NCBI GenBank assembly: GCA_945893365.1
Contig: CAMDED010000023.1
Coordinates: forward strand, 1-64,000
From: Candidatus Sulfopaludibacter sp. SbA3
GTDB taxonomy: Bacteria > Acidobacteriota > Terriglobia > Bryobacterales > Bryobacteraceae
Direction: 5' to 3'
Length of the DNA stretch: 64,000 bases
Numbering within the stretch: position 1 is the first letter of the stretch; the number at the start of each line of letters is the position of its first letter. The notes under the pieces are model-generated. The model saw nothing but the letters and a program-made list of their open reading frames with translations, was not told the origin of the DNA and made no database searches. The position numbers and the translations under genes were made by a program. This document shows, one piece after another, positions 2,045-10,068 of the stretch.

Positions 2045-2073
2045 TTGACAGCTCCGCTAGCGCGCTGCAATAT
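2045..2073 (+). promoter_or_regulatory. Sigma-70-like promoter at the edge of the IS630 remnant
   Basis: A consensus TTGACA (2045-2050) is followed after exactly 17 bases by CAATAT (2068-2073), seven bases before the ATG of the binding-protein gene at 2080. A start site at the usual distance would fall on or beside the ATG, so the mRNA may be leaderless; a GAGG lies at 2075-2078 all the same. The position against the IS remnant suggests the element may have supplied or replaced the promoter. Confidence 0.45.
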
Positions 2074-2079
2074 TGAGGT

Positions 2080-3123
2080 ATGAAAGACTCGCGTCGCGTC
2101 TTCTTAGGAGTTACGGGGTGGGTCGCCGGGATCAGCGCCCTCCATATGTGGCTCAACGTCAACTGGAATGCGCTCCGCGACGGCCTTCGCTCGCGCGCCC
2201 TACTCCAAACGCTGGAAGTAGCCGGGTTGCCCGTCACCTGCAACCTCACGCTTCCCATCGCCTGCGTGGCGCGCAATCTCGACAGAACCGTCGCCCGAGC
2301 GAACTTCGAATACAAACGGTACAACGGTTGGCCGGAGGTCAAAGAGTCGCTCATTTCCGGCAAGATCAACGCCGCCTACATGCTGGCGCCGCTGGTAATG
2401 GATCTGGTGACGAAGGACGTCCCGCTTAAGATCGTCTCCATAGGTCATAGGTCGGGCGCGGTCATCATGGTGCGCACTGACTCGCCCTATCGGAAGTTCA
2501 AGGATCTGACCGGCAAGCGAATTGCCATCCCCAGCCGCTTCGCCGTCGACTTTCTCTTTCTCCGCAAGATGCTGATTAGGGAAGGCATGTCGGACAAGGA
2601 CCTTCAGATCGTCGAGATGCCGCCTCCCGACATGCCCGCCGCGCTCTTCACCAAGGCGGTCGACGCGTACTGTACCGGCGAGCCGTATGGCGCCGCGGCG
2701 CAACGCGCCGGATACGCAGTTCCCTTGCGGATGACGCGCGACGAATGGCCCAACTACATCTGCTGCGTCCTCACCGTGCGCCAGGAGCTCATCGATGAGA
2801 ACCCTGGCCTGGTGCAGGACCTCGTCAACTACGTGCAGGGGGCCGGCCAATGGCTCGATGCCGATCGGGGCCATCGGACCCGGGCGGCCGAGATCTCCTC
2901 CGATAGTAAGTACTTTAATCAAGACCGGGCGATCATCCAATACGTCATGGACAACCCGAGCGACCGTGTAACCTATGGAGATCTGCGGATGATCAAGGAG
3001 GAGTTCGACGATATGATGCAGCTCTCCTTGCAAGCCGGAACGCTCAAAAGCCCCATTGCCTTCGAGCGCTACATCGACGACCGCTTCGTGAAGGCTGCTA
3101 TTCCGGCGCGCATCGCGCTGTAA
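2080..3123 (+). CDS. NMT1/SsuA-like ABC substrate-binding protein with Tat-type signal
   Basis: The product has 347 aa. The N-terminus carries SRRVFLG followed by a hydrophobic stretch (residues 5-27), a good twin-arginine export motif, so a folded periplasmic protein is expected. The body has the layout of NitT/TauT/SsuA-type binding proteins: an early ligand loop near AGLPVTCNL, the segment SGKINAAYMLAPLVM where such proteins contact their ligand, LTGKRIAIPSRFA and VDAYCTGEPYGAAA. No permease or ATPase gene is adjacent; instead SCO, cupredoxin and cytochrome genes follow directly (10 bases to the next ATG). This makes a sensing or metal/electron-transfer role as likely as uptake. The ligand is unknown. 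Family assignment is good, function is inference. Confidence 0.75.
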   Translation: MKDSRRVFLGVTGWVAGISALHMWLNVNWNALRDGLRSRALLQTLEVAGLPVTCNLTLPIACVARNLDRTVARANFEYKRYNGWPEVKESLISGKINAAYMLAPLVMDLVTKDVPLKIVSIGHRSGAVIMVRTDSPYRKFKDLTGKRIAIPSRFAVDFLFLRKMLIREGMSDKDLQIVEMPPPDMPAALFTKAVDAYCTGEPYGAAAQRAGYAVPLRMTRDEWPNYICCVLTVRQELIDENPGLVQDLVNYVQGAGQWLDADRGHRTRAAEISSDSKYFNQDRAIIQYVMDNPSDRVTYGDLRMIKEEFDDMMQLSLQAGTLKSPIAFERYIDDRFVKAAIPARIAL

Positions 3124-3133
3124 GGGCTCAATA

Positions 3134-3748
3134 ATGAAGAAAACGCTCCTCGTCGGCGCAGTGGTTCTTCCCCTCGTAGCAATGGGAACCTACTTCGCCT
3201 TTCGGCGGGCCCCGCAAGCCGAACAGGGCCTTCGCTCCGGTACCTTCGAGCCGCCCCGCGAGGCGCCCGCCTTCAGTCTGGACGGCTCCAACGGCAAGAC
3301 GCTGAGCCTGCGCAACCATCTCGGCAAAGTGGTCATCTTGGAGTTCGGCTACACCTTTTGTGAGGATGTCTGCCCGGTAACGCTTGCCCACCTGACCGCA
3401 GTCTACAAGAAGCTGGGGAGCGCTGCGCGCGACGTCCAGCTGATTTACGTGACGGTCGATCCAGAGCGCGACAGTCCGGAGCGCCTGCGCGAGCACCTGA
3501 CCGCCTTCAACCCGAGCTTCCTCGGCGCCACAGGCCCCCCCGACGAGCTCAAGGCCGTTCAGAAAGCCTACGGCGTCGTCGCCAAGCACGTGGTTTCCCG
3601 GAATCAGGCACTCGGATACGGAGTGGATCATTCGTCGTCCCTCTACCTGGTCGACAGGCAGGGAAAACTCCGCGGGCTGGTGCCCTTCGGTACTCCAGCC
3701 GACGACATCGTTCACGATATCGAGCTCCTGTTGAAGATGGGGGCATGA
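3134..3748 (+). CDS. SCO1/SenC family copper chaperone
   Basis: This 204-aa protein has an N-terminal membrane anchor (residues 4-23) and a thioredoxin-like SCO domain. The copper ligands are all present: Cys76 and Cys80 in the CEDVCP motif and His166 in GYGVDHSS. SCO proteins deliver copper to the CuA centre of cytochrome oxidase or act as periplasmic thiol oxidoreductases. No oxidase genes are in the window, so the client is more likely one of the neighbouring cupredoxins. The gene lies 10 bases after the binding-protein gene and overlaps the next start by ATGA, so the set is one operon. Confidence 0.9.
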   Translation: MKKTLLVGAVVLPLVAMGTYFAFRRAPQAEQGLRSGTFEPPREAPAFSLDGSNGKTLSLRNHLGKVVILEFGYTFCEDVCPVTLAHLTAVYKKLGSAARDVQLIYVTVDPERDSPERLREHLTAFNPSFLGATGPPDELKAVQKAYGVVAKHVVSRNQALGYGVDHSSSLYLVDRQGKLRGLVPFGTPADDIVHDIELLLKMGA

Positions 3749-4248
3749 TGTCGACTGCTGCCGACGCTCTCTCGGACGTCCATCCACGTGATGAAGATGG
3801 TCTACGGACTCCATCCCGAACGCGTCGTCGCCGGCTCTTCGGGATCGTCGGCGGCGTGATCTTAACCCCTGTCATCTTCGCGGCGATGTGGCCCGTGACC
3901 TTCGACTCGCGAGAAGAGCTGTTCGAGATCCCCAAGGGTACCTGGGCTCGCCGGATGGCCGGCGAAAAGCGCGAGATCCTGCCGTCGGAGATTCATCTAC
4001 TCGTCGGCATTCGTAACGTGTTGATGCTGAAGAACTCGGACGACGTGCCGCAAATCTTCGGGCCGACCTTGCTGATGCCGGGCCAGACCCTCCGACTACC
4101 CTTCACGACGCCGTCGGAGAACTACTTTGCCTGCACCGCACACGCGAGTGGGCAGCTCATCGTTTTTGTGGAAGCAGCGCCGGCCTGGCCGTGGAACCGG
4201 CTCAGCTGGCGGGTACGACGAATACTACGCTGGTTGTCCAAGCCATGA
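3745..4248 (+). CDS. Membrane-anchored cupredoxin-like protein
   Basis: The protein has 167 aa: a basic N-terminus (RTRRRR at 25-30), one membrane span at about 31-50, then a beta-rich domain of about 100 residues facing the periplasm. That domain ends FACTAHASGQLIVFVE, where Cys130 and His133 resemble the late metal-ligand loop of cupredoxins; PGQTLRLPF before it is typical of the fold. The start ATG overlaps the SCO stop by four bases, and its own stop overlaps the next start in the same way. Copper binding is likely from context but the full ligand set is not certain. No specific family name is claimed. Confidence 0.65.
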   Translation: MMSTAADALSDVHPRDEDGLRTPSRTRRRRLFGIVGGVILTPVIFAAMWPVTFDSREELFEIPKGTWARRMAGEKREILPSEIHLLVGIRNVLMLKNSDDVPQIFGPTLLMPGQTLRLPFTTPSENYFACTAHASGQLIVFVEAAPAWPWNRLSWRVRRILRWLSKP

Positions 4249-4610
4249 GGGCGGCCATGCTCAGTCATCGCTGGCGTTGGCCGCTTCTCATCGGAGTGGT
4301 GGCGGTCGTCGGCTCCACTTCACGCGAGACCGCGCGGCGGCAGCGGTCCGTTGGCTATGCGGAAGCGCGCACGGTGGTGAACCGCCGCTGCATCGAGTGT
4401 CACTCTGCGCAACCGACCAGCCGCGCCTTCCCGATTGCCCCTCGAGGAGTCATGCTCGACACCGCCCTGCAGATGAAACAGTACGCCCGGCGGATCGAGG
4501 CGCGCGTGGCAGTGGAGCGCACGATGCCGATCGCAAACATGAGCGGCATGACCGACGACGAGCGCTGGGTTCTCGGTCGTTGGGTGGAGACGGGCGCCAA
4601 AATCCAATAG
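4245..4610 (+). CDS. Small membrane-bound c-type cytochrome, PuuD C-terminal-domain type
   Basis: Starting at the ATG that overlaps the cupredoxin stop (ATGA), the protein has 121 aa: a signal anchor at about 8-25, then one haem c motif CIECH (Cys49, Cys52, His53). The rest, with APRGVMLDT, RTMPIANMSGMTDDER and LGRWVETGA, closely resembles the cytochrome c domain found at the C-terminus of the urate oxidase PuuD; a Met in MPIANMSGM is the likely distal haem ligand. The urate oxidase part is absent. It is the last gene of the binding protein/SCO/cupredoxin operon and would serve as its electron acceptor or donor. Confidence 0.8.
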   Translation: MRAAMLSHRWRWPLLIGVVAVVGSTSRETARRQRSVGYAEARTVVNRRCIECHSAQPTSRAFPIAPRGVMLDTALQMKQYARRIEARVAVERTMPIANMSGMTDDERWVLGRWVETGAKIQ

Positions 4611-4966
4611 TGGCGATGGATCTGCGGCGGCCGCTTGCGGTTGATCGCCATAATGCTCGGCCCGTTAAAGGGGTGCTCCATCACCCCTCGGTGCGGATCG
4701 GCGAGTTGCGCGTGCTGGGCGCCTGGACGACGTAAAGGACAAGCGCACTTCTTATATTAGGGGTCTTGCTCCGATGGGATCTTATGTGAACTTCGGGTGA
4801 GAGACTCTTCCGGCGGAGGGTTGTAAGCCCTAACGATCCAGCAGGATGCTGAATTCCTCCCTGCTACGCTGTCTTTTCACCAATGGGATCCATCTTCCAT
4901 CGCCGGTAGTGCCCTGGCAATCCACCCAACGCCGGGCGCCAGCGATGGAGGACCCGGATCGGCATC
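4611..4966. other. Intergenic region without a supported gene
   Basis: Behind the cytochrome gene there is no convincing frame. Short antisense frames have no motif. The region ends where the remnant of a zinc-ribbon IS protein begins on the minus strand. Confidence 0.4.
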
Positions 4967-5284
4967 TCAAGCATCGGTTGCGCGATCTTGTCCGGTTCGG
5001 CGGCCTTTTTCGACGCCGCCACCGCCGCTTTCAGCGCCTTGTGCTCGCACTGGCCAAGCCTGATCCTCGGAGCAGGGCTGGTCCACTGTGCGCTTGCACC
5101 GGTGGCACAGGTACCGGCGCACCCGGATCACGCCTTCGAAGGCCACGTCTGCGATCGTGCGCTGGTAGGAGCCGTGGCCTGCGGGTGGCCGTTTCGCTTC
5201 ACATTGCGGGCAGTGGCCGGGACGGTAACGATTCGGGATCGCCGATCCCGGCCGAATAGTGTTGGATCGAGCCGATAAATGCAT
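4967..5284 (-). pseudogene. Zinc-ribbon N-terminal fragment of an IS protein (DUF6431-like)
   Basis: The minus frame from an ATG at 5284 encodes NRYRPGHCPQC, then GHGSYQRTIADVAFEG, IRVRRYLCHRCKRTV. The two CxxC pairs and basic strands are the zinc ribbon at the start of several IS-encoded proteins (DUF6431 type). After CKRTV the expected LLPEF-type continuation is lost and the frame turns into low-complexity sequence, so only the first third survives. Its start is 14 bases from the divergent cupredoxin gene. Confidence 0.6.
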
Positions 5285-5297
5285 GTAGGATCTCTGT

Positions 5298-5717
5298 ATG
5301 GACACCAGGAACATCAAACGTCAGGCACTCTACCTCGTCATCGGCGCTCTCGGCTGTGTTCTCGTCTGGAAAATCGCACCGCTCTTGAGCACATCTAGTT
5401 TCGTAATTAGGATGACCCCCGGCGCGAATATGACACAGGGTCCCCACGCGCCTCCGGGTTCGGTGCTGGTGAACGTCAGTATGGTCGGGTTCGACCCTGC
5501 GTCGATCGAGGCGAAAGCCGGCCAGCCGCTTAAGCTGGCGTTCTTTCGGCCCAACACGGCAAACTGTGGCCGTGAAGTGGTATTCCCCAGCCTCGGTATA
5601 CGGAAAGAGCTTCCGCCAGGTCAAACCGTAGTTGTGGATATTACACCTTCAAAGAGCGGCCCGCTTGGTTTTGAATGTGGTATGAAAATGCTGAAGGGAC
5701 AACTGATCGTTCGCTGA
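5298..5717 (+). CDS. Cupredoxin-domain protein, membrane anchored
   Basis: This 139-aa protein has one N-terminal membrane span (residues 9-30) and a PF13473-type cupredoxin domain. The possible copper ligands are Cys90 (ANCGREVVFP), Cys127, Met129 and Met131 (ECGMKMLKG). The stretch FPSLGIRKELPPGQT is typical of small Cys/Met-rich cupredoxins that sit beside copper-handling or P-type ATPase genes. It is separated from the SCO operon only by an IS remnant, so it may once have belonged to it. Periplasmic copper binding is likely; partner unknown. Confidence 0.8.
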   Translation: MDTRNIKRQALYLVIGALGCVLVWKIAPLLSTSSFVIRMTPGANMTQGPHAPPGSVLVNVSMVGFDPASIEAKAGQPLKLAFFRPNTANCGREVVFPSLGIRKELPPGQTVVVDITPSKSGPLGFECGMKMLKGQLIVR

Positions 5718-6726: not shown

Positions 6727-9700
6727 ATGCGCATGAAACCGCTTCTAGGGGTTCTTGTGGCTGCCGGCTTGTCGATCGGCGCCGCAAACGCTCAAATTCT
6801 CTACGGATCGCTCATCGGAAACGTTACCGATCCAACCAACGCCGCGATCGTCGACGCCAAAGTCACGGTCACGGAACGCCAGACGAATCAGGTTCGCGAG
6901 GCGGCCACCAACGAGACCGGCCTGTTCTCGTTTCAGACGCTGCAACCCGGCGCCTACGACCTCAAAGTCGTGCGCGACGGCTTCCGGATGTACACGAGCA
7001 CAGGCGTTACCGTGTCGATCAACAGCGTGACGCGCGTCGATGTGGGTCTGCAAGTTGGCTCGGTTGCGGAGACGGTGCAGGTGATCGCGACCGCTTTGAC
7101 CATGCAGACGGATCGCTCGGAAGTGCGGTCGGAGATTACGGCGGAGACGTTCCAGAACCTGCCGGTGGCTCCCGGACGTAACTATCAACAGCTCTTCAAG
7201 ACTCTGCCCGGGTTCCGTCCGCCGTCAAACGCGCATTCGGTTCCAACCAACCCTTCACGCGCGCTGACGTTCAATGTCAACGGCGCGAGCCAGTCGATCA
7301 ACAACACCAAGATCGACGGAGCGAGCTCGATCGCGCCGTGGCTGCCGCATGCGACGGCCTTCGTTCCGACGCTCGAAGCGATCGAGACCGTGAACGTCGT
7401 AACCAACAGCTTCGACGCCGAGCAGGGCTTGGCTGGCGGCGCTGCGATCAACGTCCAGATTCGCAGCGGCACGAACGACATGCATGCGGTGTTGTTCGAG
7501 TACAACACCAACAACAATCTCAAGGCGAAGAATTTCTTCCTGCCGGCGGGCCAGGACAAGCCCAAGCTCGTGAACAACGAGTACGGCGGCACCGTGGGCG
7601 GCCCCATCAAGAAGGACAAGCTCTTCTACTTCGCGAGCTATGAAGGCAGCCCGAACCGGGAGTTCGCCTCGCGCTTCGTCTCCGTGCCTACGGCAGCCAT
7701 GAAACTGGGCGACATGAGCGAATCTCCGCGCATCGTTTACGACCCCCTCACAGGCAACCCGGATGGCAGCGGCCGCACCGCCTTCCCCGACAATCGCGTT
7801 CCCGCCAGCCGCATCAGCCCCATTATTAGGAAAATGGTCGACCTGACTCCGAATCCAAACCAGCCCGGCTTGGCGAACAACTACTACCAAGGCGGCTCCT
7901 ACGTCTACGACCGGCACCGCGTCGACTCGAAAGTCAACTACAACGCTTCGAGCAAACTTACGATGTTCGGCCGCTACAGCCAGTTGCATTACAGCATGAA
8001 CAACCCGCAGGTTTTTGGAGCGCTCGGCGGACCGGAGATTTCGAGCGCCGGCGGGAATCCGGGCATCGCTTCGGGCGATACCTACAGCTTCACGGGAGCG
8101 GTGACCTACGTCTTCACGCCGACTCTGATTCTCGACGCCTACTACGGCTACACACGAATGGACACCCACGTGGCCCAGGCCCGCCTCGAAGAAAAACTCG
8201 GCAGCGACTTCCTGGGAATCCCCGGAACCAACGGTACCCGCCGTTTTGAAGGCGGATGGCCACAGTTCGATATCGATAATTACACGGCCCTCGGCGTACC
8301 CTACAACTTCATGCCCTACGACCGGCGGGATCCGCAATCTCAATATGTCGCGAATTTCAATTGGACAAAGAAGGCCCATGAAGTCCGCTTTGGATTCGAC
8401 CTGTATCGCACCGGCATGAACCACGCCCAGCCCGAGGCCACCGGCGCCTTCTACGGCGCTCAAGGCGGATTTCTATTCACCGGCGGGCCGACGAACGTCC
8501 CTTCCCAGGCGGCAAACAACTTCAATTCCTACTCCGCGTTCCTCCTGGGTCTGCCGCAGCGCGCGGGCAAGATCACGCAGGTGCCGGACGAGTACAACAC
8601 GCGGTCGTTCCAATACAGTTTCTACGTTCGCGACCGTTGGAACGTCTCTCGAAAACTGACGCTGTCCTACGGCGTGCGCTGGGAATATTTTCCGTTTCCA
8701 ACCCGCGCGGATCGCGGCTTGGAACTGTACGACCAGACAGCCAACAAGATGCTGATCTGCGGCGCCGGGAATATCCCGCGGGATTGCGGGGTGAATGAAA
8801 GCAAGAAGAAGTTCGCGCCGCGACTGGGCTTCGCATATCGCGTCAATGAAGGCTTCGTGATTCGCGCCGGATACGGCTTGACCAACGATCCGTTCTCTTT
8901 ACAGCGGCCGTTCCGCACGAATTATCCCGTGTTGCTGATCCAGAACCTGGAAGGCGTGAACGCCTTCCAGCCCTACGCCCCGATCGCGCAAGGTATCCCG
9001 AGGGCCGTGGTTCCGGACCCTGGCAGCGGGGTCGTCGATATTCCGGGCACCTTCGCGGTCGTGACCGCGGACAAGGACTTCAAACGCGGATACGTGCAGT
9101 CGTGGAATTTCACGATTCAGAAGCAGCTCAAGTGGGGTTTCGTCGGCCAGGCCGGTTACGTTGCGACCCGCAGCACGAACCAGATGGGTTACCTCGATCT
9201 TAATGCCGGCCAAGTGATTGGCGCCGGGCAGGCGGGACGGCCGTTCAGGGAAAAGTTCGGGCGCACCGCGGCCACGACCGTGGTCAAGCCCTTCGGCACC
9301 ACTCAATTCGATTCGTTGCAGGCGACGCTGGAGCGGCGTCTTGCGCGCGGCGTGGGTCTGAACATGGCCTATACCTGGTCTAAGGTGATCGGCTTCGTCA
9401 ATAACAACGATGAAGGACCGGCGGTGAATGCCGTTGCATACTTTGACCGCAATCGGAACGTCCGCGGTTACGACCGTACGCATAACGTCCAGATCTCGAA
9501 CATCATTGAAATGCCGTTCGGGAAGGGAAAGAAGTTCGCAAGCACCGGGGCGGCGGCGGCTATCCTCGGCAGTTGGCAGGCGAACAGCATCCTAAGCCTC
9601 TACAGCGGCACCCCGTTCTTAATCGCTTCCGACGGCGCCTCGCTGAACATGCCCGGATCGCAGCAAACGGCAGACCAGGTGAAGCCGTCGGTCGAGAAAT

Positions 9701-10068
9701 ACGGCGCCGTCGGAAAGGGTACGCCCTATTTCGACGTCACCGCCTTTGCCCCGGTGACGGGAGCGCGCTTCGGCAACACCGGGCACAACATCATACGCGG
9801 ACCGGGCGTCGCGAACTGGGATTTCAGCATCTTCAGGAAGTTCGCAATCACGGAGCGTTTCAAGCTGGAGTTCCGCGCCGAGTCGTTCAACTTTACGAAT
9901 ACTCCGCACTTCAACAATCCGGGTAACAACGTGTCAAACTTCAATCCGACGATCACCGATCCGCTGCGGCGCTTCGGAGGGTTTGGCGAGATCACGGCCA
10001 CGTCCGGAATCGGACGTGACGGCATCGACGAGCGGCAGTTCCGGTTGGGGCTGCGGCTCAGCTTCTAG
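6727..10068 (+). CDS. Oar-type TonB-dependent receptor 1
   Basis: The 1113-aa product starts with a Sec signal peptide (residues 1-22, ending AANA). Next comes a carboxypeptidase-regulatory-like Ig domain (about 24-105, with LIGNVTDPTNA), a TonB plug domain (about 115-235, GASQSINNTKIDGAS), and a long outer-membrane beta barrel. It ends in the aromatic beta signal GLRLSF. Such receptors are hugely expanded in Acidobacteriota and take up large ligands, presumably oligosaccharides or peptides, with energy from TonB/ExbBD. No substrate genes lie beside it: upstream is a dead oxidoreductase, downstream a terminator. The substrate cannot be told from the sequence. Confidence 0.9.
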   Translation: MRMKPLLGVLVAAGLSIGAANAQILYGSLIGNVTDPTNAAIVDAKVTVTERQTNQVREAATNETGLFSFQTLQPGAYDLKVVRDGFRMYTSTGVTVSINSVTRVDVGLQVGSVAETVQVIATALTMQTDRSEVRSEITAETFQNLPVAPGRNYQQLFKTLPGFRPPSNAHSVPTNPSRALTFNVNGASQSINNTKIDGASSIAPWLPHATAFVPTLEAIETVNVVTNSFDAEQGLAGGAAINVQIRSGTNDMHAVLFEYNTNNNLKAKNFFLPAGQDKPKLVNNEYGGTVGGPIKKDKLFYFASYEGSPNREFASRFVSVPTAAMKLGDMSESPRIVYDPLTGNPDGSGRTAFPDNRVPASRISPIIRKMVDLTPNPNQPGLANNYYQGGSYVYDRHRVDSKVNYNASSKLTMFGRYSQLHYSMNNPQVFGALGGPEISSAGGNPGIASGDTYSFTGAVTYVFTPTLILDAYYGYTRMDTHVAQARLEEKLGSDFLGIPGTNGTRRFEGGWPQFDIDNYTALGVPYNFMPYDRRDPQSQYVANFNWTKKAHEVRFGFDLYRTGMNHAQPEATGAFYGAQGGFLFTGGPTNVPSQAANNFNSYSAFLLGLPQRAGKITQVPDEYNTRSFQYSFYVRDRWNVSRKLTLSYGVRWEYFPFPTRADRGLELYDQTANKMLICGAGNIPRDCGVNESKKKFAPRLGFAYRVNEGFVIRAGYGLTNDPFSLQRPFRTNYPVLLIQNLEGVNAFQPYAPIAQGIPRAVVPDPGSGVVDIPGTFAVVTADKDFKRGYVQSWNFTIQKQLKWGFVGQAGYVATRSTNQMGYLDLNAGQVIGAGQAGRPFREKFGRTAATTVVKPFGTTQFDSLQATLERRLARGVGLNMAYTWSKVIGFVNNNDEGPAVNAVAYFDRNRNVRGYDRTHNVQISNIIEMPFGKGKKFASTGAAAAILGSWQANSILSLYSGTPFLIASDGASLNMPGSQQTADQVKPSVEKYGAVGKGTPYFDVTAFAPVTGARFGNTGHNIIRGPGVANWDFSIFRKFAITERFKLEFRAESFNFTNTPHFNNPGNNVSNFNPTITDPLRRFGGFGEITATSGIGRDGIDERQFRLGLRLSF

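Follow-up and report, generated by a model that had tools for sequence, protein, structure and literature searches.

An acidobacterial operon joining an SsuA-like binding protein to SCO, cupredoxins and a cytochrome c: a candidate soft-metal trafficking module related to ABC importers

Results

Organization of the operon

The window, that is the whole stretch of 64,000 nucleotides analysed here, belongs to an acidobacterial draft genome of 7.9 Mb in 299 contigs (G000), whose placement in Acidobacteriota follows from its near relative L004 and from the kin retrieved by sequence search. Four genes, all on the plus strand, span positions 2080 to 4610. Gene 1 (2080–3123, +) encodes an NMT1/SsuA-like substrate-binding protein of 347 aa, gene 2 (3134–3748, +) a SCO1/SenC copper chaperone or thiol protein, gene 3 (3745–4248, +) a membrane-anchored cupredoxin-fold protein and gene 4 (4245–4610, +) a small CIECH cytochrome c. 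Genes 1 and 2 are separated by 10 bases and the following junctions are two ATGA overlaps, exactly as reported in the first-pass annotation. The four genes and their families had also been described correctly, as judged from Pfam, AlphaFold2 and Foldseek, except for the start of the cytochrome: ATG 4245 is the most likely start and is preferred to GTG 4191 because it yields the ATGA overlap.

A cupredoxin gene at 5298–5717 (+) follows beyond a 675-bp insertion-sequence remnant (4606–5280; strandless as a feature), which was delimited from the breakpoints of the alignment between the window and L004 and contains an ISL3-type zinc ribbon (Zn_ribbon_ISL3) on the minus strand. The remnant, which parts the cytochrome gene from the cupredoxin gene, is real, but the second cupredoxin, which the first-pass annotation had placed past it and outside its four-gene operon, belongs to the operon. 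In L004 the cytochrome and cupredoxin 2 genes lie only about 20 bp apart with no insertion. Since L004 has all five genes uninterrupted and the window has 675 bp extra, the alignment assigns cupredoxin 2 to this operon as its fifth gene, split off by the remnant.

A putative sigma-70-like promoter (TTGACA; AATATT/CAATAT) was located at 2045–2074 (+), just 5' of the ATG of gene 1, by a promoter scan for which approximately one such site is expected by chance in the scanned region. Because the promoter ends just before the ATG, the operon transcript may be nearly leaderless. The flank, outside the module, carries an IS630-like transposase piece with a winged HTH_33 domain (1487–2035, −), which ends 9 bp 5' of the −35 box. 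Homology between the window and L004 starts at 2037, and the TTGACA box directly after this point is kept in L004. Thus, as judged from the alignment, the operon lies among IS debris, yet its promoter-like box has been retained. Integrase-core and IS630-like transposase remnants were observed at 1–516 and 813–2035, just upstream of the operon, and on its other side positions 6727–10068 encode a large outer-membrane beta-barrel protein with a carboxypeptidase-regulatory domain (OMP_b-brl_4).

The binding protein

The binding protein scores above the Pfam gathering cut-off for NMT1_2/NMT1, and its substrate-binding-protein (SBP) fold was confirmed by AlphaFold2 (pLDDT 89) and Foldseek. Its N-terminus, SRRVFLG, is a Tat-like twin-arginine start, and the twin arginine is common to most of its Pseudomonadota relatives. 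The closest solved structure both by sequence and by fold, and the top Foldseek match, is 3UN6, an ABC binding component of S. aureus titled as zinc-bound (E 1e-26; 1e-47 with a profile).

Among 35 aligned family members, H123 and C229 are present in every one, while C54 is a cysteine in 32 and an in-frame TGA, probably encoding selenocysteine (Sec), in the other three. The binding protein of the window has C62, C198 and C228 in addition. The structure 3UN6 carries His, His and Cys at the positions of C54, H123 and C229, and thus differs in having a histidine rather than Cys or Sec at position 54; the identity is approximately 25%. To our knowledge, 3UN6 has no copper partners. We infer that C54, H123 and C229 share one pocket, in which a metal or a small metal complex would be held between the two lobes of the protein.

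More distant binding proteins (L098–L100, Pseudomonadota, 31–33% identity) were set aside as an outgroup rather than counted as family members. The Cys motif is missing in two of them, those with a visible start, and each is followed by a sensor-like membrane gene (approximately 490 aa) and a QueF-like gene.

Selenocysteine in relatives

The in-frame TGA at the otherwise invariant cysteine (PVT-U-HLxCPVT) was found in L072 (9237), L073 (8347) and L077 (minus strand), which fall in different groups of the family. A tRNA-Sec scoring above the Rfam cut-off is present in all three genomes. A strong hairpin downstream of the TGA was seen only in L077, and the assignment of selenocysteine at this position in the three loci is for this reason probable rather than proven. 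A 2026 review of prokaryotic selenoproteins describes the Sec-containing binding proteins SaoX, SaoB and BtuF, which have other motifs; a Sec binding-protein family with the present motif was not found in the accessible part of its list (PMC13188914). The probable Sec form would thus add a binding-protein selenoprotein family to those given there.

Gene order and distribution among relatives

The trio of binding protein, SCO and membrane cupredoxin occurs in the same order in all ten related loci, which belong to Acidobacteriota and Pseudomonadota. In eight of these (L005–L009 and L079–L081, from Massilia and other Pseudomonadota), genes for an ABC permease and an ATPase lie directly behind the cupredoxin gene, whereas both are missing from the operon in the two acidobacterial copies, the window and L004. 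The latter is the nearest relative, an Acidobacteriia MAG in which the binding protein is 81% identical and the order is binding protein, SCO, cupredoxin, cytochrome and second cupredoxin. The cytochrome gene is present in three loci from two phyla (the window, L004 and L008). The L008 operon runs from the trio through the ABC genes to the cytochrome and, by having all of these together, connects the two arrangements. Therefore, of the four-family order proposed in the first-pass annotation, the trio holds throughout, but the cytochrome is not part of the core.

The co-linearity of the trio in ten of ten loci and the dN/dS values of 0.17–0.49 between the window and L004 across the five genes argue that the conservation is not due to chance. 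Among 399 Burkholderiales and 297 Acidobacteriota genomes, strong matches to gene 3 (E below 1e-60) were obtained only in the five genomes that have this type of binding protein. On plasmids, we retrieved nothing related to the gene 3 cupredoxin, and the binding proteins found there were all distant. Distant cupredoxin paralogues of Burkholderiales were uninformative, having mostly lost both the copper ligands and the SCO and SBP neighbourhood; in L115–L119 (Burkholderiales, including Massilia), a membrane cupredoxin paralogue with mostly degenerate copper ligands adjoins a large sensor-like gene.

The SCO-linked binding proteins form a cluster in the tree (99/99), which one very long branch, L084, joins. 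They are approximately 65–82% identical to that of the window across two phyla, as compared to only 42% for the binding protein of the other ABC operon in G000, and this difference suggests horizontal transfer.

In the wider family, the binding protein is encoded at the end of acidobacterial operons that run permease, ATPase, permease and binding protein, and ABC genes accompany it in 25 of 26 loci. A complete paralogous operon of this kind is located on contig C11 of G000, where the permeases are 50–52% identical to the Massilia permease, and another is found in the genome of L004. An HMA protein with a CxxC motif follows nine of the 25 paralogous ABC operons; its nearest models are a UxxU metal-binding (seleno)protein, MerTP and CopZ. 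Seven of the paralogous operons (L062, L066, L067, L068, L071, L074 and L083) lie near a gene for an ASPIC/UnbV FG-GAP protein, often with a TPR/FG-GAP protein gene nearby and with a small membrane protein that looks UnbU-like by eye and has no Pfam match.

Since the operon itself encodes a permease and an ATPase in eight of ten relatives, the binding protein is, by homology, a component of an ABC transporter and not intrinsically an orphan. The first-pass annotation was right that the window locus has no adjacent permease or ATPase, but its view of an orphan by nature, which it held open to a nearby complete ABC transporter claiming the protein, has been rejected; the relatives, together with the paralogous system on C11, come close to supplying such a transporter.

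SCO, cupredoxins and cytochrome

The SCO protein matches Pfam SCO1-SenC (E 9e-39) and has the CxxxC motif and distal histidine of the family. Its C76, C80 and H166 are invariant in relatives, as are C130 and H133 of the gene 3 protein, in agreement with the residues highlighted at the outset. A separate SCO gene adjoins coxB/coxA elsewhere in G000, and we therefore rejected the reading of the operon SCO as the sole oxidase-assembly SCO of this genome; other oxidase factors than this one are likely. SCO proteins can also serve as thiol reductases.

Pfam gives no match for the gene 3 protein. AlphaFold2 predictions for ten relatives yielded one N-terminal membrane helix followed by a beta domain (pLDDT 87), and Foldseek matched the beta domain to cupredoxins and CuA domains. 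A type-1 blue copper site consists of two His, a Cys and usually an axial Met. In gene 3, the position aligned with the first copper histidine is Gln103, a glutamine in all ten relatives, and the axial Met position is variable, so that the full ligand set is not present. On the basis of the alignment, it is thus doubtful that gene 3 has a standard type-1 copper site for carrying electrons, and the protein seems ill suited to act as a classical electron carrier.

The gene 5 protein is a membrane-anchored, CupA-like cupredoxin (Cupredoxin_1; CupA match E 1e-14). Its C90, C127, M129 and M131 align with the Cys and Met pairs at the binuclear Cu(I) site of CupA from Streptococcus pneumoniae (2mry, 4f2e), the two cysteines being 37 residues apart. 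In contrast to CupA, it is not accompanied in its operon by a CopA P-type ATPase and is expected to be periplasmic. The gene 4 protein has a CxxCH motif and is similar to the C-terminal haem domain of PuuD, with approximately 28–39% identity where it matches annotated PuuD proteins, but it is a small free-standing protein without the membrane enzyme part.

Comparison with known systems

The selenocysteine-assisted organometal (SAO) ABC transporter SaoX/SaoP/SaoA (Haft and Gwadz 2023, as listed in PMC13188914) resembles the present family in having an SsuA-type binding protein with Cys or Sec and a proposed role in soft-metal handling. SaoP is the best NCBIfam model for the Massilia permease, and the ATPase model is related. 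However, all scores are below the curated cut-offs of these equivalog models: 51 against 300 for SaoX with the binding protein of the window, 194.6 against 295 for SaoP with the Massilia permease and 192 against 360 for SaoA with the Massilia ATPase. The family motif PVT-U-HLxCP also differs from UxP (SaoX) and CUxxT (SaoB) in the accessible part of the list (PMC13188914), and the present proteins are coupled to SCO and cupredoxins, or to HMA. No SaoL organometal lyase, SaoC or SaoT was recognised by eye in the listed neighbourhoods.

For copper import, the accessible part of a 2020 review covers CcoA (MFS), CopD/YcnJ and chalkophores and contains no dedicated copper-binding ABC importer (PMC7558416). 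CcoA/CalT and CopD/YcnJ would share copper import with the function proposed here for the Pseudomonadota operons, but they are MFS or CopD-type proteins. The operon SCO has the CxxxC, distal His and Pfam family of the SCO1/SenC chaperones and differs from them in lying away from oxidase genes, which the other SCO of G000 adjoins. Thus, the individual parts belong to known families, whereas in the open-licence literature we found no description of their combination or of such a copper ABC importer, in line with the earlier statement that the module matches no described system.

Discussion

Interpretation of the operon

We interpret the operon as a periplasmic module for capture and trafficking of a soft metal, probably Cu(I), whose origin lies in an ABC importer akin to the SAO system, and we hold this reading with about even confidence. 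It is favoured by the trio, which is co-linear in ten of ten loci and continues into permease and ATPase genes in eight, and by the restriction of strong gene 3 matches to genomes with this type of binding protein. Metal binding is suggested by the C54 Cys or Sec, the invariant H123 and C229 and the zinc-bound 3UN6 as the closest structure, although the zinc of 3UN6 could stem from crystallisation. The HMA CxxC protein next to nine of 25 paralogous ABC operons is consistent with a metal theme, and the Cys and Met residues kept in the CupA match point to copper. The first-pass annotation is upheld as regards a co-conserved module with a copper theme, evident in SCO and the CupA-like cupredoxin, and as regards the PuuD-like cytochrome. 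Three observations weaken the copper reading: the MerP-like neighbours fit mercury or organometals equally, the membrane cupredoxin lacks the full type-1 ligand set, and SCO proteins may also be thiol reductases.

In this scheme, the binding protein would capture the soft metal, most likely Cu(I), which in Pseudomonadota would be imported by the cognate permease and ATPase. SCO and the products of genes 3 and 5 would hand Cu(I) along at the membrane, and the PuuD-like cytochrome may maintain the proper redox state of the metal or of thiols. The acidobacterial binding proteins could either dock to a paralogous ABC transporter (on C11 in G000) or now work without a transporter, as periplasmic chaperones that bring metal to SCO and the cupredoxins. 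A more specific proposal is put forward tentatively: a dedicated ABC importer of Cu(I) or another soft metal in Acidobacteriota and some Pseudomonadota, with the metal held by Cys or, in some lineages, Sec, from which the binding protein of the window would have been cut loose to become a periplasmic copper chaperone that works alongside SCO, both cupredoxins and the cytochrome.

Alternative explanations

The main rival is uptake or detoxification of mercury or organometals by an SAO-like route, in which SCO and the cupredoxins would be thiol-based metal carriers. The best model for the permease (SaoP, 194.6 bits), the matches of the binding protein and ATPase to SaoX and SaoA, the Sec that takes the place of the key cysteine in three genomes and the resemblance of the HMA neighbour to MerP/MerTP and a Sec metal-binding family are all in its favour. 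We nevertheless consider this route unlikely: every SAO score is under its cut-off, no merA- or merB-like gene was recognised in the loci, and SCO together with a CupA-like Cu(I) cupredoxin indicates copper. The fold of the binding protein and its nearest general families (SsuA/NrtA/TauA) would also suit a conventional ABC importer for small anions, organic or inorganic, of the nitrate, sulfonate or taurine type, with the copper genes merely as operon companions. However, relatives of SsuA/NrtA that bind anions would not be expected to have Cys, His and Cys invariant, with Sec at one of these sites; in the aligned nitrate-transporter domain, Asp occupies the position of C54. The link of the binding protein to SCO and cupredoxin in ten of ten loci also speaks against anion uptake, which we consider quite improbable.

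Improbable, too, is the periplasmic copper-haem electron chain proposed in the first-pass annotation, to which the binding protein would present a substrate or copper ligand and in which the PuuD-like cytochrome would take the electrons. Retention of the cytochrome in three loci of two phyla and its resemblance to the electron-accepting domain of PuuD agree with such a chain, but the remaining seven loci have no cytochrome gene, the operon contains neither an oxidase nor a dehydrogenase gene, and the membrane cupredoxin does not conserve a type-1 copper ligand set; accompanying oxidase genes had been suggested as a check. Finally, Sec usually stands in for catalytic cysteines and the desulfinase DszB, which has an SBP fold, is among the structural matches, so the binding protein might be a redox protein or enzyme with C54/Sec as the catalytic nucleophile, like the Cys of DszB. 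The permease and ATPase neighbours in eight of ten loci and in 25 of 26 relatives are those of a transport subunit, and we regard an enzymatic role as very improbable.

Under the preferred soft-metal reading, the module bears on the entry of copper into bacteria, which is poorly known; the importers covered in the accessible part of the 2020 review are MFS (CcoA), CopD-type and chalkophore systems (PMC7558416). A binding protein with invariant Cys, His and Cys (sometimes Sec) that is linked to SCO and a cupredoxin would offer a candidate copper route of the ABC type that can be tested directly, and this candidate is present in culturable Massilia strains.
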